Positions 4,903 through 20,995 of a DNA stretch of 64,000 nt are shown here, piece by piece. The stretch lies in the NCBI GenBank assembly GCA_030156945.1, contig JASGLT010000001.1, positions 113,677 through 177,676 of the forward strand. Reading direction: 5' to 3'. Position 1 is the first letter of the stretch; each line of letters opens with the position of its first letter. Both the position numbers and the translations under genes were made by a program. The notes under the pieces are model-generated. The model did no database searches. It worked only from the letters and a program-made list of their open reading frames with translations, and was not told the origin of the DNA. The DNA is from Thermococcaceae archaeon (GTDB lineage Archaea; Methanobacteriota_B; Thermococci; Thermococcales; Thermococcaceae).

Positions 4903-5832
4903 GTGATGAGCAGGTTTTCAATGGAAGAGCTGGAATTTCTTACGAATATCCTGCAAAAGCATCCCCTCGACAGCCTCAGAAAAATCTCAAAGGAGGAGAG
5001 GGTGGATTATTACAAGCTCAAACGGCTTTACGACAAGTACTACGGGAAACACGTCACAGTAAGCGCAATCTACAACCCAAGGAAACTCGGGCTAAAGAGC
5101 TATGTAACATTTCTAAGCGTCCCCTCCGATTCGATTCTTGAAGTGGCTAAAAAAATGTCTTCAAACCCCTACGTATCATACCTCAATCCTGCATTTGGGT
5201 TCAAAAACGGTCTCACAGCTTTCATGGCAGTTCCCAAGGATCAAGTCAACCTTATCGATGAGTTCCTTTCAAGGTACTCTGACGATTACGAGTGGTATGA
5301 AATGCAACCGTATTCTTACTCCATAGACGACTCTGAGGATGGAGGCTGGAAATTCAGCTACGACTACGCCATCCTGATGGATATTCTAAAGGAGGACGCC
5401 CGAACTCCCATATCCGAGATAGCAAACAAACTCGGAAAGACGGGACCCACCGTCAGGTACATGATAGAGAGGCTAAAAAAAGAAGGCGTAATCCTCGCGT
5501 TCGAGGCCGTAGTGGATATGACAACCCACGACAGGGGAGTAATCGGGATAACCCGCGAGCTGAAAGAGGAAGTTATCCAAAAGTTCCAAGATTACGAGAT
5601 GTTGATAGCAGTGCTGCCCGGCCATGGCTACATGATCGAGTGGTACTTCTCATCAAGTGAAGATTTGGGGCTGAAAGTGATGGAATTCAGCCGATACGTG
5701 GATAAGCTCCTGATTGAATACTTCGATGAAACCTTCAAGAAGATGAACGACGAGAGAATGAAAAGAAGGTTCAGGATGATAGTAAAAAAGGACGGGAGTG
5801 GCTACAGGTCCCTTCTGGATTTCATGGGCTAA
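4903..5832 (+). CDS. Lrp/AsnC-like transcriptional regulator with two HTH segments
   Basis: N-terminal HTH (ILQKHPLDSLRKISKEERVDYYKLKRL) and second HTH (ILKEDARTPISEIANKLGKTGPTVRYMIERLKKEGVI). Confidence 0.75.
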   Translation: MMSRFSMEELEFLTNILQKHPLDSLRKISKEERVDYYKLKRLYDKYYGKHVTVSAIYNPRKLGLKSYVTFLSVPSDSILEVAKKMSSNPYVSYLNPAFGFKNGLTAFMAVPKDQVNLIDEFLSRYSDDYEWYEMQPYSYSIDDSEDGGWKFSYDYAILMDILKEDARTPISEIANKLGKTGPTVRYMIERLKKEGVILAFEAVVDMTTHDRGVIGITRELKEEVIQKFQDYEMLIAVLPGHGYMIEWYFSSSEDLGLKVMEFSRYVDKLLIEYFDETFKKMNDERMKRRFRMIVKKDGSGYRSLLDFMG

Positions 5833-6761
5833 AAAACTATTGGGCAGTACTCAACTCCCCCCAGGTCTCCCGTGGCCTGGAACTCGAGTGCCCTGCAGTC
5901 GTGGCATATGTATTTGAAGGGGCATTTAGAGCAGGTTCCTATTCTGTCCTTTGTCAGCGTCCAGAAATCGTTGACCGCCTTTCTCCTGAGAATGTCCCTC
6001 AGCTTTCCGGTTTTTAAATCCCCAAGCACGAACCCCCGCAGGAGGGGACAGGGGAGTACGTAACCATCGGCAGTTACCGCCAGAGTGTCGGCGAGGCACG
6101 GGCTGTATTTTTCCAGGTTTGGGCTGAAGACCCTCCTGAGCTCAACGACATTGAAGTCGAGCTTTCTGTAGGAGCCGGGGAAGAGCACGTCCACGTATAC
6201 TTCTCCCTCAAAACCTATATTCATGCCCAAAAGTTCGTCAAGGTCCTTCCCCCTAACCGTCACCAACGCGCCGTGAAGCCAGTCAAAAACCTCAAGCTCC
6301 TTGATGTTGTCCCGATAGTAATCCACCTCGGCCACGAACTTAACACCTTCTACGGGAGAAGCCTTTTTCACATCCTCGAGAAGTGCCACTGCGTAAACTT
6401 CGGGAATTCCCAGCTCCACGGCGTAGGAAGACACCATGAGGAGCTGTTCAAGAGTGTCGTAATTGGTGAGCCAGAGCTCCTTTCCCCCCATTTTAGCGAA
6501 CTCCCTTAAAATCTCCTGGATTTCCTCAACGCTCATTGGCTCACGGCGCAGGATGAATCTGTTGTTGCCGATGCATCCTATAGAACGAGGTATACCCTCG
6601 GTTTCCGAAAATCTCCCCTTTCCCTCACCCAGCTGCACTATAAGCCTCTCAAGCTTCCCTTTTTTGGGTTTGACTGTCCACGGAGGTTTTGCCACCGATA
6701 CAACCCTCAGCTTAGAGTTGCCTCTCAAACTAATTACGGCACTTTCAACTGCCTCTTCCAT
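5829..6761 (-). CDS. SPASM-domain protein without radical SAM CxxxCxxC motif
   Basis: C-terminal ADGYVLPCPLLRG...CSKCPFKYICHDCRALEFQATGDLGGVEYCPIVF SPASM-like Cys cluster; no N-terminal CxxxCxxC in 310 aa. Confidence 0.7.
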   Translation of the reverse strand: MEEAVESAVISLRGNSKLRVVSVAKPPWTVKPKKGKLERLIVQLGEGKGRFSETEGIPRSIGCIGNNRFILRREPMSVEEIQEILREFAKMGGKELWLTNYDTLEQLLMVSSYAVELGIPEVYAVALLEDVKKASPVEGVKFVAEVDYYRDNIKELEVFDWLHGALVTVRGKDLDELLGMNIGFEGEVYVDVLFPGSYRKLDFNVVELRRVFSPNLEKYSPCLADTLAVTADGYVLPCPLLRGFVLGDLKTGKLRDILRRKAVNDFWTLTKDRIGTCSKCPFKYICHDCRALEFQATGDLGGVEYCPIVF

Positions 6762-6816
6762 GCTGCCTCCCCCAGGAGGGGATGGAAGGGAACCTATAAA
6801 TACTTTTTCTATTCAT

Positions 6817-6833
6817 ATTTTGCATACTATCAA
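6817..6833 (-). promoter_or_regulatory. 17-nt promoter motif TTGATAGTATGCAAAAT, copy 1
   Basis: attttgcatactatcaa on + strand; upstream of a TATA-like gtatttatagg and the SPASM gene. Confidence 0.5.
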
Positions 6834-6861
6834 AAATAGTTAGCAAAAAATGAAGAACCCC

Positions 6862-8207: not shown

Positions 8208-8910
8208 GCTCCACGACGTCAAAGATGTTCAGAGCGAGGTCTATCAGGAGGAGCTTGTTAATCAAAGGCTCCCCAATGCCAGTGAGCAGTTTAATAACCT
8301 CCATGGCCTGTATTGAGCCAACAACTCCGGCAGTTGCCCCGATTATCGGGAATTTTTCCTCCTTTTCTTTAACTTTCGGGAAGAGCTCCTTTAGGCTCTT
8401 GGTGAGACCCGGTACTATCGTTGTGATCTGCCCGTGCATCCCCTCAACCGCCCCGTGAACGAGGGGAATTTTCTTCCTGTGCACGTAGTCATCGAGCAGG
8501 TAGCGGGTCTCGAAGTTGTCGAGACAATCGACCACGACATCAACGCCTTTAAGGACTTCTTCAACGTTCTCCTCCGTGAGTCTGCCACTGAAGGTTTCTA
8601 TTTTTATGTCGGAGTTGAAGCGCTCAAGCTTCCATCTGGCGGACTCTGGCTTTGGTCTCTCCCCCACGTCTTCCTCCCAGTGGAGTATCTGTCTGTTGAG
8701 GTTGCTCAGCTCGGGCCTCTGCTCGTCAACAAGCAGGAGAGTTCCCACACCAGCGGCTGCAAGGTAGTAAGCAACGGGGCTACCCAACCCACCAACACCC
8801 ACCACGGCAACCTTTGCACCCTTGAGCTTCTCCTGACCCTCCTTCCCGAAGATCATTATCTGCCGGTCATACCTTTCAATTTCCCTTTCACTCAACATAT
8901 CAACCACCAC
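8200..8910 (-). CDS. ThiF/MoeB/HesA family adenylyltransferase (E1-like)
   Basis: ERYDRQIMIFGKEGQEKLKGAKVAVVGVGGLGSPVAYYLAAAGVGTLLLVD; next to moaD-like gene. Confidence 0.92.
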   Translation of the reverse strand: MVVDMLSEREIERYDRQIMIFGKEGQEKLKGAKVAVVGVGGLGSPVAYYLAAAGVGTLLLVDEQRPELSNLNRQILHWEEDVGERPKPESARWKLERFNSDIKIETFSGRLTEENVEEVLKGVDVVVDCLDNFETRYLLDDYVHRKKIPLVHGAVEGMHGQITTIVPGLTKSLKELFPKVKEKEEKFPIIGATAGVVGSIQAMEVIKLLTGIGEPLINKLLLIDLALNIFDVVELK

Positions 8911-9166
8911 TCACAGGCGGGAATATCGCCACCACATCCCCATCCTGAAGAGCCTCATCAAACTTAACGTAGCGACCGTTTCTTGAGACGTTTACATCAG
9001 CCAAATCATCCTCCTCAGCAAAGACCTCATTCTTCAGTTCAGGATGCCTCTCCTTCAGGAATTCAATCAGCTCCCCCACAGTTATCCCATCGGGCACTTC
9101 AAGCTCTTCCTCACTCTTGCCCACTAGAGAGCGGTAACGGGCGAAGTATCTGACCCTTATTTTCAT
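8900..9166 (-). CDS. moaD: MoaD/SAMP ubiquitin-like small protein
   Basis: 88 aa beta-grasp-like sequence ending in ...AIFPPVSGG. Confidence 0.9.
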   Translation of the reverse strand: MKIRVRYFARYRSLVGKSEEELEVPDGITVGELIEFLKERHPELKNEVFAEEDDLADVNVSRNGRYVKFDEALQDGDVVAIFPPVSGG

Positions 9167-9185
9167 TGAATTCCCCCAAAGGAAA

Positions 9186-9306
9186 CTAATACGCGAGAGT
9201 TAAAAAATATTGCTCGATGTAATCAACCCACGAGAAATCACGCCCAACTTCTGAGAGCTTCAAGGCATTGTTGCCAAAGATATTGCTACTAACTTCCCCT
9301 ATCCAC
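9186..9306 (-). pseudogene. Remnant of glycosyltransferase (GT4-like) C-terminus
   Basis: Minus strand reads ...WIGEVSSNIFGNNALKLSEVGRDFSWVDYIEQYFLTLAY*, resembling GT group 1 C-termini; no start codon. Confidence 0.45.
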
Positions 9307-9362
9307 TACTTTTGTTTTTCCAAGTCTGTCCAAACCCAGTTGGCCCCCAATACTTGGGATTT

Positions 9363-9611
9363 TTAAGCCTCCCCCAGCATCTTTGATTCACTTCCCACCC
9401 TTTTCACAAGTTCTTCCGGAGTCATGTATTCGACTCTACCGTGCTCTCCTATGATGTAGGGCTCTTTCTTAGTCCTGTTCTTTTTCTGATCCGCCATGAA
9501 CGCGATTACAAGAACCCCAAAGCCCACGAGATCCCATGTACTAACTGCCTCCTGAACGATCAGGGCGAGAATATAGAAAACAAAAATGAGAATCCAATAT
9601 TTGACTTTCAT
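9363..9611 (-). CDS. Small membrane protein (candidate immunity protein, paralogue of 9787..10119)
   Basis: Two TM segments plus KKEPYIIGEHGRVEYMTPEELVKRV shared with neighbour PREPYIIGDSKEIEYLTEEELEQRL. Confidence 0.65.
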   Translation of the reverse strand: MKVKYWILIFVFYILALIVQEAVSTWDLVGFGVLVIAFMADQKKNRTKKEPYIIGEHGRVEYMTPEELVKRVGSESKMLGEA

Positions 9612-9659
9612 CTGAGTATCACCCCTCTGTTGTTTTCATGCTCCTCTTTCACGCTTAAA

Positions 9660-9770
9660 TTACAACCACGTAAAACCTAACCTCGTACGAGTGCTCACCC
9701 TCACTCGCCAACCATTGAAGGGTGAAGCTTTTAGTGGAGCCAGCACTAACGCTCCCGCTCAATGGGTCAT
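9660..9770 (-). pseudogene. Orphan CARDB junction fragment
   Basis: DNA matches the recurring junction (tcgtacgagtgctcaccct...attgaagggtgaagcttttagtggagcc), reading like ...STKSFTLQW.ASEGEHSYEVR; no intact ORF. Confidence 0.65.
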
Positions 9771-9786
9771 CCTCCTGATCTTCAAT

Positions 9787-10119
9787 TCATGACTCTCCAG
9801 TTTTTCCATGCTTAAGACGTTGTTCCAGCTCTTCTTCTGTAAGATACTCAATTTCCTTTGAATCACCAATGATGTAGGGTTCTCGTGGAACTTTCTTACA
9901 TCGCTCATAATGTTTCATATCGCAAAGTACCCAGAGTACGAACAGCGGCCAAGTGGGCAAGATTGCAATTAAGATACTCCACGGAATAGATCCAATTACG
10001 TAAACAGCCAATAGAAAGATAAAGACAAAAGGGACGACAAACTCTGCAAAACGTTTACTCATACTCGCCTCTTGCAATCTAGTTGTTAAGTATAATTCAA
10101 CATCATTCATTTTCCTCAC
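9787..10119 (-). CDS. Small membrane protein (candidate immunity protein)
   Basis: 110 aa, 2 TM, shares xEPYIIGxxxxxEYxTxEEL motif with 9363..9611; overlaps upstream gene. Confidence 0.65.
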   Translation of the reverse strand: MRKMNDVELYLTTRLQEASMSKRFAEFVVPFVFIFLLAVYVIGSIPWSILIAILPTWPLFVLWVLCDMKHYERCKKVPREPYIIGDSKEIEYLTEEELEQRLKHGKTGES

Positions 10120-10621
10120 CTTGGTTTTTGAATTCTAGGGTGAAGTCTAGTATGTGTAGTCCTAGTAGTGCTAGAGCTTGAAGCCCATAAATTGTGCGAT
10201 AGTAGAGGACGAGAGTGAGGGGGAGGATAATCATTAAGAGCACGGGTCTCTTAAGATCCTCCTTCAGCTTAAAATCATAAGCTAAATCACTAATAAACCT
10301 CAACACCCTATCCATGTAAAACAAAGGCAAAAACATCCACAAAAACCACAAAAGTGCAAAAGACTTTCCCAAAACTAAGATCAACGCGGCTATTGCGAGC
10401 CATATTGGGAAGAATAGTTTTGCCTCGAACTTGAACTTCTCTTTTTCAATCTCTTTATTAAACCACGCGCTCATAAGAGTGAATACTACAGAATAATACA
10501 AGTTAAGATGAACTATAGGGTATGCATTCGAAGAATAATTATCCCCCGTAATGAACACTAAAATAAGAGAAACAAGACCAGCCAGAGTCATGGCAATTCG
10601 AAGTACTTCTCTAACCTGCAT
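10103..10621 (-). CDS. Multi-TM membrane protein (candidate immunity protein)
   Basis: 172 aa with several hydrophobic helices, begins 5 nt after the 10626..11561 cassette. Confidence 0.65.
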   Translation of the reverse strand: MQVREVLRIAMTLAGLVSLILVFITGDNYSSNAYPIVHLNLYYSVVFTLMSAWFNKEIEKEKFKFEAKLFFPIWLAIAALILVLGKSFALLWFLWMFLPLFYMDRVLRFISDLAYDFKLKEDLKRPVLLMIILPLTLVLYYRTIYGLQALALLGLHILDFTLEFKNQGEENE

Positions 10622-10625
10622 GGCA

Positions 10626-11438
10626 CTACCCTCCTACGACATCATTATTGTCAAATCCTGAGTCTGGATCTGGAGCAAAAAGCCAGTCGTAGATGTCCAC
10701 TCCTATCAATAAGACAGTAAACGCTATGCCCCCAAATTTTGCTACTTTACTCCCAGCCTTTAACATGAGTAACCCTGCTGCCACATATTTCTCTGCCTCA
10801 ATGTCGTTTTTAATATAACTAACGAAAGCTTTAGCCTCTTCCACGACTCCTTTATCTTTAACCACAAGATCCTCACTTATCACGTCATCTTCAAAGACGA
10901 ACTTAATTTTATATATGTAACCCCCAAGTTGCTCCTTATATGAGGCATCTAATGGATCCAACGGATCCTTTCCAAAGTACCAGTTGGCGAAATCGTCATA
11001 AAGTATAATCCTCACTTGGATTGTGTCTGAGGGAGTTAAAGTATAACTTTTGCTATCCATGATAACACTTTTCACGCTGGATGTTCCTTCTTCCCAAACC
11101 TTCTTTCCACCGAACCATATCTGACGAAGTTCAAGGGAATTAACAGAAATTTGAGGATTCCACGAAGCAACACACGTAATGGGCTCCCCGGGATACACCT
11201 CTTTTGTGCAGTCTAAATTCGGAGAAACAATCTTTCCAACAACTTCCACAGTCACTTCCGCCCAGTGTTCTTCTCCTGCACCGTTCGGTTCACCATCATA
11301 ATTGTCGAGGAAGAGTTTGAACGTGTGGTTGCCAACACCCTGGATAGTGTAACTGAAACTAACGTTCCTCCCGCCATTCGCTGGAACTCTACCCTCAAAA
11401 CCATCAAAATTCCGAACCTGTGAGGTTGAGTATACCAT
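10626..11438 (-). CDS. Partial CARDB surface-protein cassette, signal-less, with hydrophobic C-terminal tail
   Basis: DGFEGRVPANGGRNVSFSYTIQGVGNHTFKLFLDNYDGEPNGAGEEHWAEVTV nearly identical to the full-length protein; ORF extends to 11561 but homology starts near 11407. Confidence 0.75.
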   Translation of the reverse strand: MVYSTSQVRNFDGFEGRVPANGGRNVSFSYTIQGVGNHTFKLFLDNYDGEPNGAGEEHWAEVTVEVVGKIVSPNLDCTKEVYPGEPITCVASWNPQISVNSLELRQIWFGGKKVWEEGTSSVKSVIMDSKSYTLTPSDTIQVRIILYDDFANWYFGKDPLDPLDASYKEQLGGYIYKIKFVFEDDVISEDLVVKDKGVVEEAKAFVSYIKNDIEAEKYVAAGLLMLKAGSKVAKFGGIAFTVLLIGVDIYDWLFAPDPDSGFDNNDVVGG

Positions 11439-11496
11439 CACATCTCCCTCAAAAACCGAGTTGAGAGAACTGAGGGCAACACTCTTATTCGGACTG

Positions 11497-11889
11497 TCAG
11501 CAGGGGATATCCGATGATACATCCACAATATCCTCACCCCTCTCATCTCCCCCAGAGACACCGCCCCTTGCCCACTTCATATAATAACTCCTGAGAAGGT
11601 AAGCATAAACCCCAGCCCAGATGATATTGTCCAAATAAGTCCTGAGACCGGGATTCATGCTGTCGACAACAAGGCCCAAATACATGATGATAAACGCTGA
11701 AGCCACCACTGGGGCAGGCATCTGTCTGGTTTTAAACACCCACCACACAGTAAAACTCCAAAGCAAAAGCAGAGAAATCTGAAGAACAAAAGAAAAATCA
11801 AAGTACCAATAGTAGATATTAACGAAACTCTCCCATGATAATAACAAAAGGGGGAGCAAGAGGAGCACTTTAAATGTGAAGCTACCCAT
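11497..11889 (-). CDS. Multi-TM membrane protein (candidate immunity protein)
   Basis: 130 aa hydrophobic protein directly after cassette 11896..12687. Confidence 0.65.
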   Translation of the reverse strand: MGSFTFKVLLLLPLLLLSWESFVNIYYWYFDFSFVLQISLLLLWSFTVWWVFKTRQMPAPVVASAFIIMYLGLVVDSMNPGLRTYLDNIIWAGVYAYLLRSYYMKWARGGVSGGDERGEDIVDVSSDIPC

Positions 11890-11895
11890 TAGGCA

Positions 11896-12687
11896 TCACC
11901 CCCAGAAGCTCTTTACGAATTCCCACAGCTTGTCTCCTGACTTAGATATCAATATTATTGTCACTATGATTTTTATTACGTTTTTGCCAAAGTTTTTCAG
12001 CCTTTGAACTCTCATGTCATGGTCGTATTTCTCCTGAGCACTTCCAGTGTAGAATAACGTTGTAGACGCTTTTAGAGCTTTATTGTTAAAGATAACGCCG
12101 TCGTTCTCATCAAAAACATCAAACCTGAGAATGATGCTGTATTCTGTATCCCAATAAGCAATCTGATATATTGTGTACGTATTGATATTGCCCCGGACTG
12201 TCGAGGACAATAAGTCATGATTGTCGGAGAGGCCAAAATGGGAAGCAAACCCATCATCCACCTTGCCGAGGTTTATCGGAATTTCCCGGGACGAGTGTGG
12301 GGGCACTTCTTTAAATGTGCTTAGATAGAAGATTCCCTCCAAGTTTTCAAAACGTTTGTAATTGATATCCGCCTCCTCATACGTCACTTCACCACAGAGA
12401 GTAATGTTGTTCAATTGCACTTTTACGGCAGTGGGATTATTGTTCACGACATGAACGATGCATGCGAAGCCCTCACCCAGACCAACCCGTGAAGGACACT
12501 CCAGCCTCATTTTCATCCCACTGCTTGGATTTGCAGCAACACTCACCCCTCCGCTCCAACCATCCACTTCCAACTCCTGCCCACCAACGACCTCGTAAAG
12601 CCTAACCCCGTACGAATGCTCACCCTGAACAGCAGTCCACTGAAGGGTGAAACTTTTAGTGGAGCTTGCGGGAACACTACCCCTCAC
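11896..12687 (-). CDS. Partial CARDB surface-protein cassette, signal-less, with divergent tail
   Basis: Begins MRGSVPASSTKSFTLQWTAVQGEHSYGVRLYEVVGGQELEVDGWSGGVSVA; then C...C domain and tail NVIKIIVTIILISKSGDKLWEFVKSFWG. Confidence 0.75.
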   Translation of the reverse strand: MRGSVPASSTKSFTLQWTAVQGEHSYGVRLYEVVGGQELEVDGWSGGVSVAANPSSGMKMRLECPSRVGLGEGFACIVHVVNNNPTAVKVQLNNITLCGEVTYEEADINYKRFENLEGIFYLSTFKEVPPHSSREIPINLGKVDDGFASHFGLSDNHDLLSSTVRGNINTYTIYQIAYWDTEYSIILRFDVFDENDGVIFNNKALKASTTLFYTGSAQEKYDHDMRVQRLKNFGKNVIKIIVTIILISKSGDKLWEFVKSFWG

Positions 12688-12770
12688 CGAACCAGCCTCC
12701 TAACCGTCTATGAGGAATATAGGAAATTAGTTACTGATTAAAAAGAAAAACAAAAAGTGGGAGTTCACTA

Positions 12771-13082
12771 TTATGAATCTTTTCGGGAATGTTCTGGTTT
12801 GGGGTACAGTTTTGTTAACACTAATATGTATATCAAGCTCGATAATGTGACTAGAAGGAAAACAATGATGTAAATTGAGGAGTGCAGTGCCCAAGGTGCC
12901 CATGTTCGGAACCATGCCCAATACGCCAGGAACATTGGCAGTCCAAGTACCGTCCTTTGTACCAGATGATAGTTTCCTCGCCTTAAATGAACGAGTAAGG
13001 CTATTGAGACTATCACCATCGTTGCAGGGTATAATACAATATTGAGTACAGACAAAGCATCGTCCAGAGTCATTCCCATCAC
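12771..13082 (-). CDS. Multi-TM membrane protein (candidate immunity protein)
   Basis: 103 aa hydrophobic protein; start overlaps stop of cassette 13079..13870. Confidence 0.65.
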   Translation of the reverse strand: MMGMTLDDALSVLNIVLYPATMVIVSIALLVHLRRGNYHLVQRTVLGLPMFLAYWAWFRTWAPWALHSSIYIIVFLLVTLSSLIYILVLTKLYPKPEHSRKDS

Positions 13083-13870
13083 CCCCGTATCGATAAGTCC
13101 ACTACAATGAATGTGACAATTACACCCACTATAGCCGCTCCAACTGGACCCAATCCAAGAGATGCTGCTATTAATGCTGTTGTAAGCCCAACACCCCCAC
13201 CAATTAGTAGCTCTTTTCCAATTTTCTCACTCTCCTTTTTCATGAGAGGGCTTCCGAAGTAGTAGAGTGTTATGGTCTTAGTGATGGTCGCATCCTCCTG
13301 CGGGTACGGCATGTCTATTTGTATAGTGAGAGTGTAGACCGTATCCGTCCAGTCAAACGAATATGACCCTATCGCAGGGTCATGTATGTATCTGTAGTCC
13401 AGTAGTTTTTTGTCCTCTGGGATTTCAATGGGAGCCACTAGCAGAACCTCAGTATGATTAGGGTCTATATTGATGGAATTCTGAATAGGGTACTCAATGC
13501 TCACTGTTCTAGTCTCGTGAAGATACTCATTGTAAGGATGGCCAGTTAAAATGACTTCTTTAGTGTTTATGCCAACCCTCTCGTTTAAAGTATTCTTTAA
13601 GTAGATTTTGCATTCGATAGTCTCACCAAGGCCAGCCCGCGGAGGACAGTCCACGTTTAATATTTCGACGCCCTTAATTTCATTTTTTTCTGAGATGCTA
13701 ATGCTTCCACTCTCACTGTCAACCTGCAACTCCTGCTCACCAACGACCTCGAAAAACTTCACCCCGTACGAATGCTCCCCAGCCTCAGCAGTCCATTGAA
13801 GGGTGAAGCTTTTAGCGGAGCTTGCTGGAGCTGGCGGAACGGGATTCATTATACTCACACCCTCCCTCAA
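13079..13870 (-). CDS. Partial CARDB surface-protein cassette with Gly-rich TM tail
   Basis: PASSAKSFTLQWTAEAGEHSYGVKFFEVVGEQELQVDSESG then tail LLIGGGVGLTTALIAASLGLGPVGAAIVGVIVTFIVVDLSIRG. Confidence 0.75.
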   Translation of the reverse strand: MREGVSIMNPVPPAPASSAKSFTLQWTAEAGEHSYGVKFFEVVGEQELQVDSESGSISISEKNEIKGVEILNVDCPPRAGLGETIECKIYLKNTLNERVGINTKEVILTGHPYNEYLHETRTVSIEYPIQNSINIDPNHTEVLLVAPIEIPEDKKLLDYRYIHDPAIGSYSFDWTDTVYTLTIQIDMPYPQEDATITKTITLYYFGSPLMKKESEKIGKELLIGGGVGLTTALIAASLGLGPVGAAIVGVIVTFIVVDLSIRG

Positions 13871-14355
13871 TCTTTTCTCAAATCTTCAAACATTATATAT
13901 CCAGCAAACACGAGCATTATCGCGGCAATGGCTTCACTCCAATTAGATGTTGAAACGCCTTCAATAAGGGGATTCAACGAGAAGAACCCCAAGAGCAGTA
14001 CCCCAAACCATCTAAGCCTCACTTCGGCGTTCTTTGCTGGAGGTTCTTTTCTAAGGCCGTACTGAGCCAGCAGTATAAATCCAGAGAGGGCGAGAAGAAT
14101 TGCCAATAACAAAGCCGCGAGAGTAACGCCAACAATAAGGGCACCTGTAAGAATTATAGTGATATTTGTCACAAGAAAGACATTTGACGGTCTCTCTGAA
14201 ATTTTCTTTTTTCCTCGTATCATCCATAGGATTGTTGTCCAGACGTATATAACCGAGAGGGTTACACTGGCAAGGGTTAACGTTACCCTCAAGTCTGTGG
14301 CAATATATACGAAGAGAAGCGAGAGAACATAAGTGAGAATACCCCAGTATCTCAT
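13867..14355 (-). CDS. Multi-TM membrane protein (candidate orphan immunity protein)
   Basis: 162 aa polytopic protein, overlapping starts and stops with both neighbours. Confidence 0.65.
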   Translation of the reverse strand: MRYWGILTYVLSLLFVYIATDLRVTLTLASVTLSVIYVWTTILWMIRGKKKISERPSNVFLVTNITIILTGALIVGVTLAALLLAILLALSGFILLAQYGLRKEPPAKNAEVRLRWFGVLLLGFFSLNPLIEGVSTSNWSEAIAAIMLVFAGYIMFEDLRKD

Positions 14356-14846
14356 GGCCCCGCCCCCATCAGTGCTTCGACGATTAGATACCCTATTATG
14401 GCTGGAAACGGATAGATCAAGGTCTCCAGGGTCTGTTCAGGTTTAAATGCAAGGATCAGGGCGTTAACTAGCTGAAAGGGCCAAAAGCGTTTGAACTTGC
14501 GTAGTGGGCCTACTGTTGATAAGTGCAAGAGGCCTAAGTACCCGAACCAGATCAAAAACACCACCACTAGTTTAAGAACAATTTTATGCTCCTCATAAAT
14601 GTATGCGATTGCCAGCAGTAGTGCCAAGAATAGGGTGAAGGTTAGATATAAAACGCCCTTGACTTTATGTGTTTTTGTATCTGATCCTCTGAATAGTATA
14701 ACCAGAAAAGCCAAGATTTGGATGAAGATTAAATTGGCTGCTAGTACTACCATCCCCAAGAGAGATCCTTCTGCCCAGCCTATAAGGGCGGAAGATAGAA
14801 CAAAAAATAAAAGGCCTGTAGAAAGTTTTAGGATACTGCTCTCCAT
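14352..14846 (-). CDS. Multi-TM membrane protein, paralogue of 14944..15462
   Basis: Alignable C-terminal halves (FWPFQLVNALILAFKPEQTLETLIYPFPAIIGYLIVEAL versus FWAYQWIVMVVLAIKSNEPIKVFLLLLFGLIGGYLIIKGL). Confidence 0.65.
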   Translation of the reverse strand: MESSILKLSTGLLFFVLSSALIGWAEGSLLGMVVLAANLIFIQILAFLVILFRGSDTKTHKVKGVLYLTFTLFLALLLAIAYIYEEHKIVLKLVVVFLIWFGYLGLLHLSTVGPLRKFKRFWPFQLVNALILAFKPEQTLETLIYPFPAIIGYLIVEALMGAGP

Positions 14847-14943
14847 TTATGCACCCCCCTAAGGGAATAGTTCTCAAATCTTAACTGGAATTGTAACGTT
14901 GTTACCAACACACATTAGACCCCCTCCTTTGCACCTGTTTTTG

Positions 14944-15462
14944 TTACCACTCTTTTTTGAGCTGGATAAGCCCTTTGATTATTAAGTATCCCCCAATCAG
15001 CCCAAATAATAATAACAGGAACACTTTTATCGGCTCGTTAGATTTAATGGCAAGAACTACCATAACAATCCACTGATATGCCCAGAAATACTTGACTTCC
15101 CCCGATGGATAAGTAAGTTGGTCCCTACTACGTTTGGCTAAATACAACGGAAATATGAACAATAAAACCAAAATTGTAAAAACAGCCACTATCCCCATAA
15201 TTCTACCTAAATCGTGGGATACTACCGCAATTATTCCCAAGATGCCCAAGAACAAGGCGAAAGAAGTTTGAATGATGTGCCATATTCTTTTGTCTCCCCC
15301 TGACGGCCTTGACCAGAGAACAATCGTCCCCCATAACGGGACAAACATTAGATTTATTGCGAGTACGTATAAACCACTTTCAATTCCCCGAACTTCTCCA
15401 ATCAAAATAATGGAGAGTGTAATAAGAAAGAACCCCATGAGGAAACTTCTCTTGAATCCCAT
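14944..15462 (-). CDS. Multi-TM membrane protein (candidate immunity protein)
   Basis: ATG preceded by GGGGGG-rich RBS; starts 11 nt after cassette stop; ORF as listed extends to 15579. Confidence 0.65.
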   Translation of the reverse strand: MGFKRSFLMGFFLITLSIILIGEVRGIESGLYVLAINLMFVPLWGTIVLWSRPSGGDKRIWHIIQTSFALFLGILGIIAVVSHDLGRIMGIVAVFTILVLLFIFPLYLAKRSRDQLTYPSGEVKYFWAYQWIVMVVLAIKSNEPIKVFLLLLFGLIGGYLIIKGLIQLKKEW

Positions 15463-15473
15463 ATCAAGCCCCC

Positions 15474-16655
15474 CTAAGGTAACCCTAGTACCTTGTAAGT
15501 TATAAACCCAACTGCAGCTCCGATCAACGTTCCCCCTCCGGGTACAGCCGAACCTATGGTGGCCCCAATCTTGGTGCATTTAAGTATGTATGCAGTTGCA
15601 ACTCCAGCACCAAATCCAACGGCCATTGAAATTACAAGATGTTCTATCACTTTGTCTGAATCTACCCTTATTGTCACATATTTAGTGGCTTCATAACTTA
15701 AACCCCATATCTTTCCTTTTGAATCAATTACATAGGGCTGCCCATTAACAAGTACCGTGAAATTCACTTGAACTGGAACTGTGACGCCTGATAGTTTCTT
15801 TATCTCGATCCCACTCTCAATAATTCCCTTCTCAGGCAGAACATCGTGGAATTTTAGTTCAAACTCTCCAACACCCCCCGCTGGAACTGTTTTTGTGAGT
15901 ATCGTTGGTGGAGTAAATTCGGGAGTTAAATCCTTTGTATATCTTGTCTTAAGGATATGTGCGTTGGCATTAATGCTGGTTATCTCCCACTGCACATCAG
16001 TGGGATTTGTAAAGTACACAACGCACTCCATGTCTAAAACCAAATTTCCTTCCTTTGCCAATAACTGTAAATCACTACAGTCCATGACTGCCTTTTGCAC
16101 TTTTGTTTGAGTTACTTCAATGTACTCGCTTGCCATCGAGTACTCTCCAATTTTCAGTTTTAGAGTCGTGTTCTGAGTTATGGGTCCTATGGTTGCGATT
16201 ATTCTTGCAGTCTTGTTAGCATAGATTGTCAAATAGCCATCCGAGATTGAATAGCCCACTCCATGATAACCTTCCTTAGGCCACCAAACGTTCCCAGTAT
16301 CGTCAACTAACTCGATGGGCAATGTTTGCTTGTAGTTCTCCGAGTTCTTCACAGTGATGTAAACAGTCACATTATTACCCGCTTCAACCGGGTTTGGAAC
16401 AACCTCCAGCCAGGCAGAGAGACCATTCAACACGCGCGCAACACTCACCTCCCCGCTCCACTCATCCACTTCCAACTCTTGCCCACCAAGGACCTCGAAA
16501 AGCCTAACCTCGTATGAGTGCTCACCCTGAACAGCAACCCAGTGCAGAGCCACCGAAGCACCGGAAGTGCTGACATTAACTGGCTTCGAATCAACCAACA
16601 GACTATCCACAAGCAGTTCCACCATAGAAATCAGAAAGGTGAAGATAAAAGTCAA
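15474..16655 (-). CDS. Partial CARDB surface-protein cassette with Gly-rich TM tail
   Basis: VALHWVAVQGEHSYEVRLFEVLGGQELEVDEWSGEVSVA; tail LVISMAVGFGAGVATAYILKCTKIGATIGSAVPGGGTLIGAAVGFITYKVLGLP. Confidence 0.75.
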   Translation of the reverse strand: MTFIFTFLISMVELLVDSLLVDSKPVNVSTSGASVALHWVAVQGEHSYEVRLFEVLGGQELEVDEWSGEVSVARVLNGLSAWLEVVPNPVEAGNNVTVYITVKNSENYKQTLPIELVDDTGNVWWPKEGYHGVGYSISDGYLTIYANKTARIIATIGPITQNTTLKLKIGEYSMASEYIEVTQTKVQKAVMDCSDLQLLAKEGNLVLDMECVVYFTNPTDVQWEITSINANAHILKTRYTKDLTPEFTPPTILTKTVPAGGVGEFELKFHDVLPEKGIIESGIEIKKLSGVTVPVQVNFTVLVNGQPYVIDSKGKIWGLSYEATKYVTIRVDSDKVIEHLVISMAVGFGAGVATAYILKCTKIGATIGSAVPGGGTLIGAAVGFITYKVLGLP

Positions 16656-16744
16656 AGGTCATGAACTCGAAATTCATTCATGATATCACCTGCAAGACGC
16701 CATTGTTATCATTTTCCTATGCGGATTACTCTGGCAGTGACATT

Positions 16745-17263
16745 TCATGTCAACCCCTCCTTATATAACTGGGCAACGTATAACACCACAGCTATTCCAC
16801 CTAAAAGTATAATAGCGTAGTCTTTGATTATCCAGATTAATGCCCAAAGTGCCAACAATGTTAGCGCCACATAAGTTTTTCCGAGCTTTTGGCCCAATGA
16901 GATTATTCCAATCCCATTTAGCAGGCTTATTGAGACTATTTTAAGAAGGATTGAAAAGTTCTCGATACCTTTTTTGACTACCAAATAAATCACCACAGCA
17001 ACCCATATAATGAGCACAATACTGCCTCCACTTGAAAACTCCTTGTCCTTTTTGGTCTGATTTGTAATTAGAGAATATGGTATCCCAAACGAAAAAATTC
17101 CAAATCCCAAGCCAAGGACAGGATTCTCAAAGGCCTTGCTAAGTGTCAGCAATTCCAGAGACAGCAGTGAAAAAGCAAAAGAAAGCTGAAGTACCCTCTT
17201 CCAGTTAGGATACGCAATAAGACCCAAAAAGGGAAGGAGGGAGACTATATACACTAGCTCCAT
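16745..17263 (-). CDS. Multi-TM membrane protein (candidate immunity protein)
   Basis: 172 aa polytopic protein starting 3 nt downstream of the full-length gene stop. Confidence 0.65.
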   Translation of the reverse strand: MELVYIVSLLPFLGLIAYPNWKRVLQLSFAFSLLSLELLTLSKAFENPVLGLGFGIFSFGIPYSLITNQTKKDKEFSSGGSIVLIIWVAVVIYLVVKKGIENFSILLKIVSISLLNGIGIISLGQKLGKTYVALTLLALWALIWIIKDYAIILLGGIAVVLYVAQLYKEGLT

Positions 17264-17266
17264 CTT

Positions 17267-20200
17267 TTACTCCCCCGTGAAATAGTCGAGATAACCAAAT
17301 ACCCTCCGCGAGTATTCAATCGCATTTCTCGCCCATACTATCACTTTGTTTGACCCCTTGAGGAATATCAGCGTAACGGCAATATCCACAGTAACAACTT
17401 TGTTATTCTGAGTTATTCTGCCACTACCGTAACCTTTGAATTTAAATGTTCCATGAGAAGTATTAAGGTTATACGGTAACTCCACGTAGTATGTACTTCC
17501 CCAGAGACCCCCCTCCAATACTGCGAGAGGAACCTCTGCAATTGACATAAACTGAATGGTAATATAACTCTGAGGAACTATTATATCAGATGAAATCTTA
17601 CCCTTAAACTTTTTCAGTCCAACATTCAATGCAGTTGGAGCGGCAGTAGCGTCTCCAATATCCAATCCATCAATTTTTATTTTTTCATCCGTGGGGTTGT
17701 ATATAATAGCAACACATTCAACTTCCGCTTGATAGTTTATGAGAACGTTCTTGATGGACTCTAGATTTACACCCGTGACTAGCTTAGTGAAATACAAATC
17801 ACTGCACTCAAACCCCACCTGCTTTAATTCAGTCCCATTCACAGGTTTCACTTTCACCGTCACTTCTGCCCAATGTTCTTCTCCTGCACCGTTCGGTTCA
17901 CCATCATAATTGTCGAGGAAGAGTTTGAACGCGTGGTTGCCAACACCATGGATAGTGTAACTGAAACTAACGTTCCTCCCGCCATTCGCTGGAACTCCAC
18001 CCTCAAAACCATCAATCCTCTTTATTATCGCCCCACTCTCATCCTCCACGAAACCCCTAACGGAGATGGCACTAGAGTCAAAATTCCAAATCCTAACAGT
18101 AAAGAACACTGTTCCGCCGCCTTCAAGTTCTGTTGGGAATGCCTCCAAAGAGACTGCAAACTGCTGATACTGAGAAGCAACACTCACCTCTCCACTCCAA
18201 CCATCCACTTCCAACTCCTGCCCACCAAGGACCTCGAAAAGCCTAACCTCGTATGAGTGCTCACCCTGAACAGCAGTCCACTGAAGGGTGAAGCTTTTGG
18301 TGGAGCTTGCTGGAACACTACCGCTCACCGAATCAACCACCTTGCCATCAATGAGGAGCTTCAGCTTAACAGTTTTGCTCTGGGTGTATGAGTTCTCAAC
18401 ATTAACCTTGAACGTGAGCTGTTCGCCGCTCTTTACCGTCTCCGGGCTCCTGGTAACACCCACAATTTGCAGTGAGCCGCTTGATGTAGAACCCTTGGAA
18501 ACCACAAAATACCCGCTTAGAATCTTCGAATGCTGGCCAAAGCTGCATTTCATGGTATAGCTGTACGATCCGGAGTACGCATAGTGGGCCGAGCCAAGCG
18601 TTACGGTATCACTCCCACCGTTTCCTGGAGCATCGAAACCCCCAGATGGTCTATATATGCCCCTGCTTGTGCTCGTCTGTGGAACTTCAACTTCAAGCAT
18701 GCAAGAGCCGCTAATCGGCTCACTGTTGTAGTTTGTAACAACGGCTTTGAACGTTAAATCCTCTCCTTCTTCAAAACTCCCATCCCTGTCCGAATCCTGA
18801 ATTAAAAGCGATGCTTGAACTTTACCTGGATCTATCGGGTCTTCAAGAGTTATTGTCGCCGAATAAGAAACCTCAATCAGCCTAGTTGATGTTAGGGAAT
18901 ATTCGGAATCCGTTGAAAGGGGAGTGTCTCCCGAAGAGGGCTTGTATGTAATCTTGACCGTTCCACTAACCAAAACGCTTCCAGTTCCGTATACCCTCCC
19001 GCTATTAGTGCTCTCCACGGTCGTAATCTCATCTTTATACAAAAATCCAACGCTCTCCGAATCCTCGAGTTCGGTGCCACTGAACTCCACCTCGATGTTG
19101 GAAACTGCATTTTTCTCAGCCTTAATCTCAACCACGACTTTGTACGTGGCATAATCCGCAGTTGTCGTCACTGGAACTACATAAATCGATGTGACCACGA
19201 GCCTTCCTTCCTCTCCAGCAGCCAAGGCCTCTTCAACAAGAGGACCTCCCTCTCCAGCTACAGATATTGGACCTATTGGGCTTGGAAGGACTCCCATGCA
19301 TCCAGATGAACGTGTGTAGGTCTTTAGAGCATCTGCGAGTTGAGAAACCTTCTCGTTAAGCATATAGGTCAGCTCGGGATTTGAGTTTCCGGCTTTCTTG
19401 GCGAGAAGTATTGACTCAACCTGAAGTGTAAGGTTGTATGCTTTAAGGGCGTTCCATGTGTACTCTATCTTGCATGAGTTCAACGATTCCGAGGAGGACG
19501 TTGGTTTTATAATTGGCTTTATGGGCTTTATAGGAGTTGGTTCTGGTCTTGGCGGAGAGGGTGAAGGACCGCCTAAAAATTTGGTTATGACAATGTACCC
19601 CCCAGAAACACGAACCATTGATGTGTTTGAGTCCAATTTACCGGAGATTATGTTAAGCTCTTCCTGCTTCAGCTTTTGTATGGCATAAAGCTTATCATCA
19701 ACCCCCCCTGATCTGTATGCAGTGTAAAAGTTTACCCACCCCATTAATAGCTGAGGGAGAATTACGCGATTACCGGCAAGACTTGGATTTCCATCCGCCC
19801 CGCGCCAGTACTTCCATTCCAAACCCTTAGTTTCATACTCATTGTACCTGAATGCTACCCTTAGGAACGCAGTTGAAAAGTCGGAAAGGAATTTTTCCAT
19901 GTCAAAATCCCCATGAATGTAGTCGGCGTTTTGAACAATGTAGTCTTGAAGGGCCTGGATTTCCTCATCGCTCCATCCCTGCTCCTTAAGGGCATTAACA
20001 GTTTCCTGGGGAAGGCCCTTTCTTTTGATTTCCTGAGCCATTGCCCTGAGCTCACTTTCCGTATAGTGGAGTTTCACTCCGGAGGCCTTAAGCTCCGTGA
20101 GTGCCTCCCACACAAGGGCTGAAATTTGAGCCGCGTTCTCAGAGCCATCCCGAGAGTTTTTGATGAGCTCATTGATGGCACTCAAATTCCCTCTCTGAGC

Positions 20201-20365
20201 TTTGGGAACCAGTTCAGCCTCCCTGTTTAGTATCTCCCAAAAGGCATCGTAGACCGAGCTTTTAGTTCCTGAAGTTGCAGCTACCACATAACCCGAGAAA
20301 GTCGCTGAACTCACGCTGAAACCTACTATCAACATAGCCACCAGTAAGCTTAGTACTTTTCTCAT
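17267..20365 (-). CDS. Large secreted CARDB-repeat surface protein (full-length head of the array)
   Basis: 1032 aa, signal peptide MRKVLSLLVAMLIVGFSVSSATFSGYVVAA, Pro-rich linker, repeated CARDB-like domains, C-terminal Cys-pair domain and distinct tail. Confidence 0.85.
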   Translation of the reverse strand: MRKVLSLLVAMLIVGFSVSSATFSGYVVAATSGTKSSVYDAFWEILNREAELVPKAQRGNLSAINELIKNSRDGSENAAQISALVWEALTELKASGVKLHYTESELRAMAQEIKRKGLPQETVNALKEQGWSDEEIQALQDYIVQNADYIHGDFDMEKFLSDFSTAFLRVAFRYNEYETKGLEWKYWRGADGNPSLAGNRVILPQLLMGWVNFYTAYRSGGVDDKLYAIQKLKQEELNIISGKLDSNTSMVRVSGGYIVITKFLGGPSPSPPRPEPTPIKPIKPIIKPTSSSESLNSCKIEYTWNALKAYNLTLQVESILLAKKAGNSNPELTYMLNEKVSQLADALKTYTRSSGCMGVLPSPIGPISVAGEGGPLVEEALAAGEEGRLVVTSIYVVPVTTTADYATYKVVVEIKAEKNAVSNIEVEFSGTELEDSESVGFLYKDEITTVESTNSGRVYGTGSVLVSGTVKITYKPSSGDTPLSTDSEYSLTSTRLIEVSYSATITLEDPIDPGKVQASLLIQDSDRDGSFEEGEDLTFKAVVTNYNSEPISGSCMLEVEVPQTSTSRGIYRPSGGFDAPGNGGSDTVTLGSAHYAYSGSYSYTMKCSFGQHSKILSGYFVVSKGSTSSGSLQIVGVTRSPETVKSGEQLTFKVNVENSYTQSKTVKLKLLIDGKVVDSVSGSVPASSTKSFTLQWTAVQGEHSYEVRLFEVLGGQELEVDGWSGEVSVASQYQQFAVSLEAFPTELEGGGTVFFTVRIWNFDSSAISVRGFVEDESGAIIKRIDGFEGGVPANGGRNVSFSYTIHGVGNHAFKLFLDNYDGEPNGAGEEHWAEVTVKVKPVNGTELKQVGFECSDLYFTKLVTGVNLESIKNVLINYQAEVECVAIIYNPTDEKIKIDGLDIGDATAAPTALNVGLKKFKGKISSDIIVPQSYITIQFMSIAEVPLAVLEGGLWGSTYYVELPYNLNTSHGTFKFKGYGSGRITQNNKVVTVDIAVTLIFLKGSNKVIVWARNAIEYSRRVFGYLDYFTGE

Positions 20366-20418
20366 GGTATCACCAAAGCGATGTTTTATTGTAATGCAAT
20401 AAAAAATTTTATCTTTAA

Positions 20419-20435
20419 ATTTTGCATACTATCAA
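20419..20435 (-). promoter_or_regulatory. 17-nt promoter motif TTGATAGTATGCAAAAT, copy 2
   Basis: attttgcatactatcaa on + strand, identical to 6817-6833; upstream of the array head gene. Confidence 0.5.
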
Positions 20436-20479
20436 CCGGAGTCATCAAAAAACGGATAGAAACATTTAGAACGTGCCAG

Positions 20480-20995
20480 TTACCACGGCACGCTCTTCCA
20501 GCCCATCCTGTAGGCAAAATAGTTGGCCCCCCAGTGCACGAAAGGGGAAACGATTAGCAGGAAGATTATCTGGGCGCTGGAGAGCGTTTTCACAGGATAG
20601 GCAAAGGCGAGGGCGCTTATGAGAAAGCCGAGCTGGTCGAGACCTATAGCCGGATAGCCCCTCGGAAGGTTGGCCCGCCTTTTTATGAAACTCCCGACGA
20701 GATCTCCGATGAGCGCACCAAAAGACAGTAGAAAGGCCAGCTTTAGGGCATTCTCAAGGCTTCCGTAAAATTGGGGGGTTATGAAATACTGGATTAGACC
20801 CACAGAGGTGCCGATGAGGACTCCGCCCAAAAAGCCCCTCCACGTCTTGCCGTCCCCCAAAAGCCTTCTTCCGTCCTTCCAAGTCCTGCCGCCGTCTATA
20901 GGCCTTCCCCCACCAACGATAACGGGTGAAGCGTTCGCAAAGTAAGCGGGGAGTATGTACCAGAAGGCCCAGAATACCGATGAGAGCCAGTCCAT
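20480..20995 (-). CDS. carS: CDP-2,3-bis-(O-geranylgeranyl)-sn-glycerol synthase
   Basis: PAYFANASPVIVGGGRPIDGGRTWKDGRRLLGDGKTWRGF. Confidence 0.92.
   Translation of the reverse strand: MDWLSSVFWAFWYILPAYFANASPVIVGGGRPIDGGRTWKDGRRLLGDGKTWRGFLGGVLIGTSVGLIQYFITPQFYGSLENALKLAFLLSFGALIGDLVGSFIKRRANLPRGYPAIGLDQLGFLISALAFAYPVKTLSSAQIIFLLIVSPFVHWGANYFAYRMGWKSVPW

Follow-up and report, generated by a model that had tools for sequence, protein, structure and literature searches.

The window analysed here, 64,000 nucleotides of a Thermococcaceae archaeon (GenBank assembly GCA_030156945.1, contig JASGLT010000001.1, positions 113,677 to 177,676), contains an 11.3-kb block of minus-strand genes made up of one full-length gene, four orphan cassettes and one remnant, with interleaved membrane-protein genes. 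The block lies between genes which, from an unaided reading of their proteins, we take to be carS (20480-20995) and moaD (8900-9166). The locus is a VARTIG module, of the kind described for Thermococcales by Makarova et al. (2021; PMC8416519); the protein module was already known, and what is newly located here is a DNA joint, a 166-nt tract common to the stem of the full-length gene and to the arm, i.e. the short piece of stem DNA, that heads one of the cassettes. The features of the block are listed below, with L and G numbers as our handles for loci and genomes; sampling was of one genome per species, with some assemblies in draft.

17267..20365, minus strand: full-length VARTIG gene (arCOG07710-type by description), 1032 amino acids, with a signal-peptide-like N-terminus, an Ig/CARDB stem and a variable tip at amino acids 840-1032
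17850..18015, minus strand: tract copy A, in the full-length gene: the penultimate Ig domain at its 3′ end, adjoining the tip
11242..11407, minus strand: tract copy B, the arm of cassette 10626, which adjoins the tip of that cassette; identity to copy A 95.8%
17267..17848, minus strand: tip of the full-length gene, with orphan homologues in L042, L050 and L040
16745..17263, minus strand: multi-pass membrane protein gene beside the full-length tip, a candidate cognate immunity gene
15474..16655, minus strand: orphan cassette 15474, a frame of 393 amino acids with an uncertain TTG start; full-length genes of L040 and L049 carry homologous tips
16438..16547, minus strand: arm of cassette 15474, 92% identical to the local full-length stem
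16548-16622, minus strand: foreign-type stem sequence just upstream of the 15474 arm, with a mosaic breakpoint near 16543
14944..15462, minus strand: membrane protein gene after cassette 15474
14352..14846, minus strand: membrane protein gene that co-travels with 13867-14355 (80% DNA match to G042 across both)
13867..14355, minus strand: membrane protein gene, travelling with 14352-14846
13079..13870, minus strand: orphan cassette 13079, likely start ATG 13849; tip on full-length genes in L064, L058 and L052
13706-13829, minus strand: arm of cassette 13079, 81% identical to the full-length stem
12771..13082, minus strand: membrane protein gene overlapping the end of cassette 13079
11896..12687, minus strand: orphan cassette 11896, with a GTG start inside the arm; tip on a full-length gene in L061
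12535-12716, minus strand: arm of cassette 11896, 90% identical to the full-length stem
11497..11889, minus strand: membrane protein gene after cassette 11896
10626..11561, minus strand: orphan cassette 10626, a frame of 311 amino acids with likely start ATG 11438; tip on the G017 full-length gene (L070)
10103..10621, minus strand: membrane protein gene directly after cassette 10626
9787..10119, minus strand: membrane protein gene
9665..9761, minus strand: tip-less arm remnant that precedes a membrane protein gene; identity to the full-length stem 79%
9363..9611, minus strand: membrane protein gene after the remnant arm, a candidate orphan immunity gene

The full-length gene heads the co-directed minus-strand array and its 1032-amino-acid product has a hydrophobic, signal-like N-terminus, whilst a Pfam scan placed CARDB PF07705 at amino acids 636-707 (26.1 bits, cut-off 22.7, E 9.9e-6). 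Ser164 is conserved in 39/39 homologues and Gly326-Asn327 in 39/39 and 38/39, residues that were matched to those of the VARTIG paper by description. As in VARTIG, a large secreted Ig protein comes first, with smaller genes homologous to its C-terminus downstream and membrane-protein genes behind; the conserved Ser and GN motif, the CARDB/Ig domains in the C-terminal half, the DNNxxxGG ending on some tips and the restriction to Thermococcales in the Makarova paper are further likenesses. Cassette 10626 ends in DNNDVVGG, an instance of the VARTIG motif D[ND]NxxxG[GD] that is found on 31 of the 164 tips overall and that the window's full-length gene lacks. VARTIG proteins are described as having a conserved pair of Cys residues in the most distal Ig domain; two Cys residues are invariant across the five window tips, with a comparable pair in only 48/164 tips across loci. 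N-terminal homologues occur in 51 of the 94 genomes of the family; a scan of genome contigs gave a single relative, Thermococcus sp. JdFR-02, and no relatives were found among viral contigs and plasmids, which were searched as possible carriers. The block is a presence/absence island, with moaD and carS only around 70 bp apart in G024 and likewise in G069, and many other VARTIG loci share the same address. This carS/moaD interval (8900-20995) is a recurrent VARTIG address; the only neighbour mentioned in the main text of the Makarova paper is RNase III-like.

When the region from 9.2 to 20.5 kb was compared with itself by BLAST, positions 18015-17850 of the full-length gene aligned with positions 11407-11242 of cassette 10626 without gaps over 166 nt at 95.8% identity (7 mismatches, E 2e-73), and both ends of the tract were marked by an abrupt loss of identity. 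The original prediction, made from the sequence letters, had described a gapless match with about five mismatches between 11251-11407 and 17859-18015; this 157-nt sub-stretch holds exactly five, the other two of the seven falling outside it. The similarity is far beyond chance, and homology does not extend evenly across the genes; an even extension was the outcome that had been named as refuting the idea, and it did not arise. The accompanying claim of divergence downstream of the tract proved right in that the tip-side DNA is unrelated, but the break is not confined to that side, as identity also breaks 5′ of the tract. In the full-length gene the tract forms the end of the last stem Ig domain (to amino acid 839), immediately before the tip (amino acids 840-1032), and past it the tips of the full-length gene and of cassette 10626 differ, their DNA not being alignable. 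On the 5′ side the cassette has the same Ig domain in a strongly diverged form that lacks 22 codons, the gap being flanked by short TTGA repeats; the score of this alignment was reached by 0 of 2000 shuffles. The codons that differ between the two tract copies comprise three synonymous and four nonsynonymous changes (n = 7), and so strong protein constraint is not what keeps the copies alike. The cassette copy is 95.8% identical to the local stem and at most 79% identical to any sampled other species, the nearest of which, G024, shows 89% identity in a neighbouring core gene; it is relative to the split from this species that the tract can be called recent, as originally proposed.

Shorter or weaker matches join the full-length gene to the rest of the array: cassette 11896 matches it over 182 nt (90%), cassette 15474 over 110 nt (92%), cassette 13079 over 124 nt (81%) and the tip-less remnant at 9665-9761 over 97 nt (79%). 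The arm of cassette 11896 contains an in-frame stop upstream of the gene start, which fits the expectation for a gene fragment. The arm of cassette 15474 is clearly a recombinant mosaic of foreign and local stem: upstream of 16547 the cassette is 61-71% identical to a stem type of other species and 49% identical to the local stem, whilst from 16547 to 16438 it is 92% identical to the local stem and 53-64% identical to those other stems, with the informative sites switching within a few bases. Since the 15474 and 10626 arms both look patched at the tip-proximal end, recombination in place is favoured over displacement of an intact fragment.

The tips themselves move between stem and cassette. 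The 10626 tip corresponds to the C-terminus (amino acids 902-1108) of the full-length protein of G017, where it stands behind the same joint sequence, and a DNA alignment of the two loci, at 63%, extends from the joint across the tip and on into the following gene. The predicted fusion of the 10626 tail to a full-length stem therefore exists, in another species rather than in another strain. The 164 tips include 15 multi-member families, 13 of which occur on a stem in one genome and as an orphan in another. Membrane-protein genes co-travel with the tips: the next genes are homologous in 225 of 735 homologous tip pairs as against 23 of 9479 other pairs. Because the tip pairs are non-independent, these values express an effect size and not a p-value. 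The membrane gene that follows cassette 10626 (10102-10627) also matches L049:7686-8220 in G006, a different genus, at 91% over 537 nt, and this match begins exactly at the cassette stop codon; the partner gene of 10626 seems to have been exchanged separately from its tip.

The same architecture recurs at other loci. A DNA tract shared with a downstream fragment of the same locus was present in 29 of the 38 full-length genes tested, and in 16 of the 38 the best such tract was at least 60 nt long at 85% identity or more. The ends of these tracts group at 582-675 and at 909-1057 nt from the stop codon, which places them at the tip boundary or a domain ahead of it. With a model built on the 98 nt adjoining the tip, 68 copies were found in 32 loci; the right end is mostly fixed at the tip boundary, and the left edge is intact in the majority of full-length genes but ragged in many of the orphans. 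Separately, G011 has two full-length genes with a 100% identical 312-nt tract (L067:1-312 and 16370-16681) that are elsewhere around 69% alike; one copy lies at a contig end, so the identity may be an effect of assembly.

If tips were exchanged repeatedly together with some adjacent stem sequence, synonymous similarity would be expected to peak at the joint. A first synonymous test was dropped as circular, its full-length genes having been picked by DNA similarity of the joint itself. The type-2 set (18 genes, 152 pairs) instead comprised genes whose proteins are homologous at the N-terminus and have this penultimate domain, and here the codon-usage-corrected excess of synonymous identity was 0.29 over the final 33 codons of the stem, 0.15-0.25 over the remainder of the last stem domain and 0.02-0.12 in all upstream regions, the difference between joint and stem body being 0.235 (bootstrap 0.157 to 0.315). 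In the type-1 set, six genes with an alternative joint, the highest values again adjoined the joint (0.42 against approximately 0.2) despite its different position in the protein, although this set was not significant alone (bootstrap -0.039 to 0.286). For all 39 N-terminus-selected genes, unsplit by joint type and hence with different penultimate domains aligned together, the bootstrap ran from -0.050 to 0.167.

The arm pair with its edges, the modular tips (stem-borne in some genomes, orphaned in others), the synonymous peak, the mosaic arm and the co-travelling membrane-protein genes are direct observations, and from these we consider it very probable that the locus diversifies in the manner of a bacterial Rhs/CDI orphan-tip locus, with the tract as the joint at which tips are exchanged, both within this locus and between species. 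This reading of the tract draws on the tip boundary shared across species, the G017 fusion, the contrast of 95.8% with 79% and the synonymous peak. The original prediction of recent gene conversion or a homology-directed tip-exchange point is thereby supported as to the exchange point, with gene conversion indistinguishable here from crossover or tip displacement. In the mechanism we envisage, a single expressed and exported stem gene would carry one tip, and the region downstream would act as a store of fragments bearing other tips, each headed by an arm and usually followed by its own membrane-protein gene. Arms would arise and be refreshed by homologous recombination between stem and cassette, both within the cell and with imported DNA, and tips would in this way be loaded onto the stem or displaced from it. 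Natural transformation has been reported for T. kodakarensis, T. barophilus and P. furiosus, which makes imported DNA a plausible recombination partner. Recombination between the two tract copies could fuse the 10626 tip to the stem and delete around 6.6 kb, whilst a duplication or an imported copy could give the same fusion without loss.

Local gene conversion, in which long-time neighbours have had short patches of their arms homogenised with no exchange of tips, would account for the mosaic arm of cassette 15474 and for the diverged copy of the same domain 5′ of the 10626 tract. Conversion alone moves no tips, however, and the same tips stand on stems elsewhere behind the same joint, so that we regard it as an unlikely sole explanation. 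Protein-level constraint, under which the last stem domain is merely the most conserved part of the gene, agrees with the high amino-acid identity of the joint segment (0.65 in the type-2 set), yet codon-usage-corrected synonymous sites peak there too, whilst the N-terminal segment from amino acid 61 to 180, nearly as conserved at 0.61, has a synonymous excess of only 0.09; together with an identity of 96% within the locus against at most 79% between species, this leaves constraint an improbable cause, and constraint alone was rejected on the synonymous peak. Still less probable is that the full-length gene simply underwent a recent tandem duplication at its 3′ end, the copies diverging afterwards. 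The shared orientation and locus would suit it, but the tips are not alignable as DNA in spite of an arm identity of 96%, homology is limited to the arm, and the five arms differ in length and identity, one of them being a foreign/local hybrid; an even tandem duplication was set aside as already contradicted by the uneven homology. An assembly artefact, to which a draft genome of 53 contigs might be thought prone, is hardly credible given that the copies differ by seven bases inside one contig with intact flanking genes and that further assemblies, including single-contig ones, show the same architecture.

Several points nevertheless weigh against the exchange of tips at the joint as we have set it out. 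Of 41 tracts of at least 60 nt only 25 were closer within the locus than to other species, which implies that local and interspecies exchange are both at work. Arm identity does not drop with distance from the stem gene, and simple serial displacement therefore does not explain the order of the cassettes; displacement ordered by distance was accordingly rejected (arm identities 92, 81, 90, 96 and 79%). With one genome per species, no exchange event was seen directly in this lineage. The cassettes have plausible ribosome-binding sites and starts and so may be translated rather than silent. Furthermore, no toxin domain or enzymatic motif was found in the tips, with no toxin family in the Pfam scan and no PADLOC match, and the AlphaFold model of the 10626 tip was too poor to use (pLDDT 45).

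In bacteria, main and orphan rhs genes of Salmonella share 522 bp at 95%, and evolved lines carried a fusion of the two, whilst Rhs tips are displaced along with core sequence of varying length (Jackson 2009, PMC2935791; Koskiniemi 2014, PMC3967940); in CDI orphans, identity drops off abruptly where the module begins (Poole 2011; PMC3150448). Like Rhs, the window has a core gene, displaced tips that start with more or less of the core and linked genes that are candidates for immunity; it differs in its unrelated Ig/CARDB scaffold, archaeal export, shorter arm (166 nt) and multi-pass membrane partners. Like CdiA-CT/CdiI, it has orphan C-terminal fragments with varying upstream sequence, an abrupt boundary and a candidate immunity gene behind each, but no CdiA-type scaffold or secretion partner was recognised in the window, and toxicity would here be an analogy. 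The Pfam scan contained neither Rhs repeats nor a CdiA-type scaffold. The window works like the Rhs and CdiA systems at the DNA level and is not a member of those families; with polymorphic toxin systems it shares modular C-terminal tips, orphan tip cassettes and, for all five window tips, a partner gene directly after the tip.

Against VARTIG as published the difference lies in the DNA. The Makarova paper could not place the sites of exchange, whereas here the joint is mapped and the arms are near-identical DNA within loci. That paper found no within-locus recombination and considered the genes too diverged for homologous recombination (PMC8416519); this window and many other loci argue against both statements. 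The 2021 description had left the origin of the hypervariable ends open, and the window and its relatives now place the joint at nucleotide resolution. With within-locus DNA arms common and a mosaic arm found, exchange becomes testable in cultured, naturally competent Thermococcales, and VARTIG is brought closer to bacterial Rhs/CDI loci, where the fusion of main and orphan genes has experimental proof.

Signal-like N-termini were present in 29 of 39 full-length proteins and in 5 of 121 cassettes. The cassette starts of the window are preceded by purine-rich sequence that makes translation possible. At least two membrane-like stretches were predicted in 141 of 149 next genes as against 3 of 74 background open reading frames, and each window tip overlaps, or is followed within around 12 nt by, a membrane-protein gene. 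By analogy with the bacterial systems each tip may be a toxin acting on membranes or a domain for recognition, with the membrane protein as its specific immunity or partner protein, a proposal we regard as an even call. More tentatively, and with doubts that outweigh our confidence, VARTIG as a whole could be an archaeal tip-swapping weapon or recognition system, diversified by homologous recombination at a short DNA joint shared across genera of its family, with a within-locus store of unexported tips and interspecies import, and with membrane-acting tips neutralised by the co-travelling multi-pass membrane proteins.

The adjacent membrane proteins at 9363-10119 share a C-terminal pattern, EPYIIG...EY.T.EEL, and the DNA encoding this stretch is conserved in other genomes (90% in L044, 82% in L073). 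A 46-nt repeat (78%) with TTTTGCATACTATCA lies at 6805-6850 and 20407-20452, upstream of the gene at 5829-6761 and of the full-length VARTIG gene respectively, and is possibly a shared regulatory site. G028, which is closely related and has VARTIG at the same chromosomal address, carries its full-length gene broken into two frames (L054:9159-12399); the second half of the gene has the domain of cassette 15474 (83% DNA identity, window positions 16112-16442).

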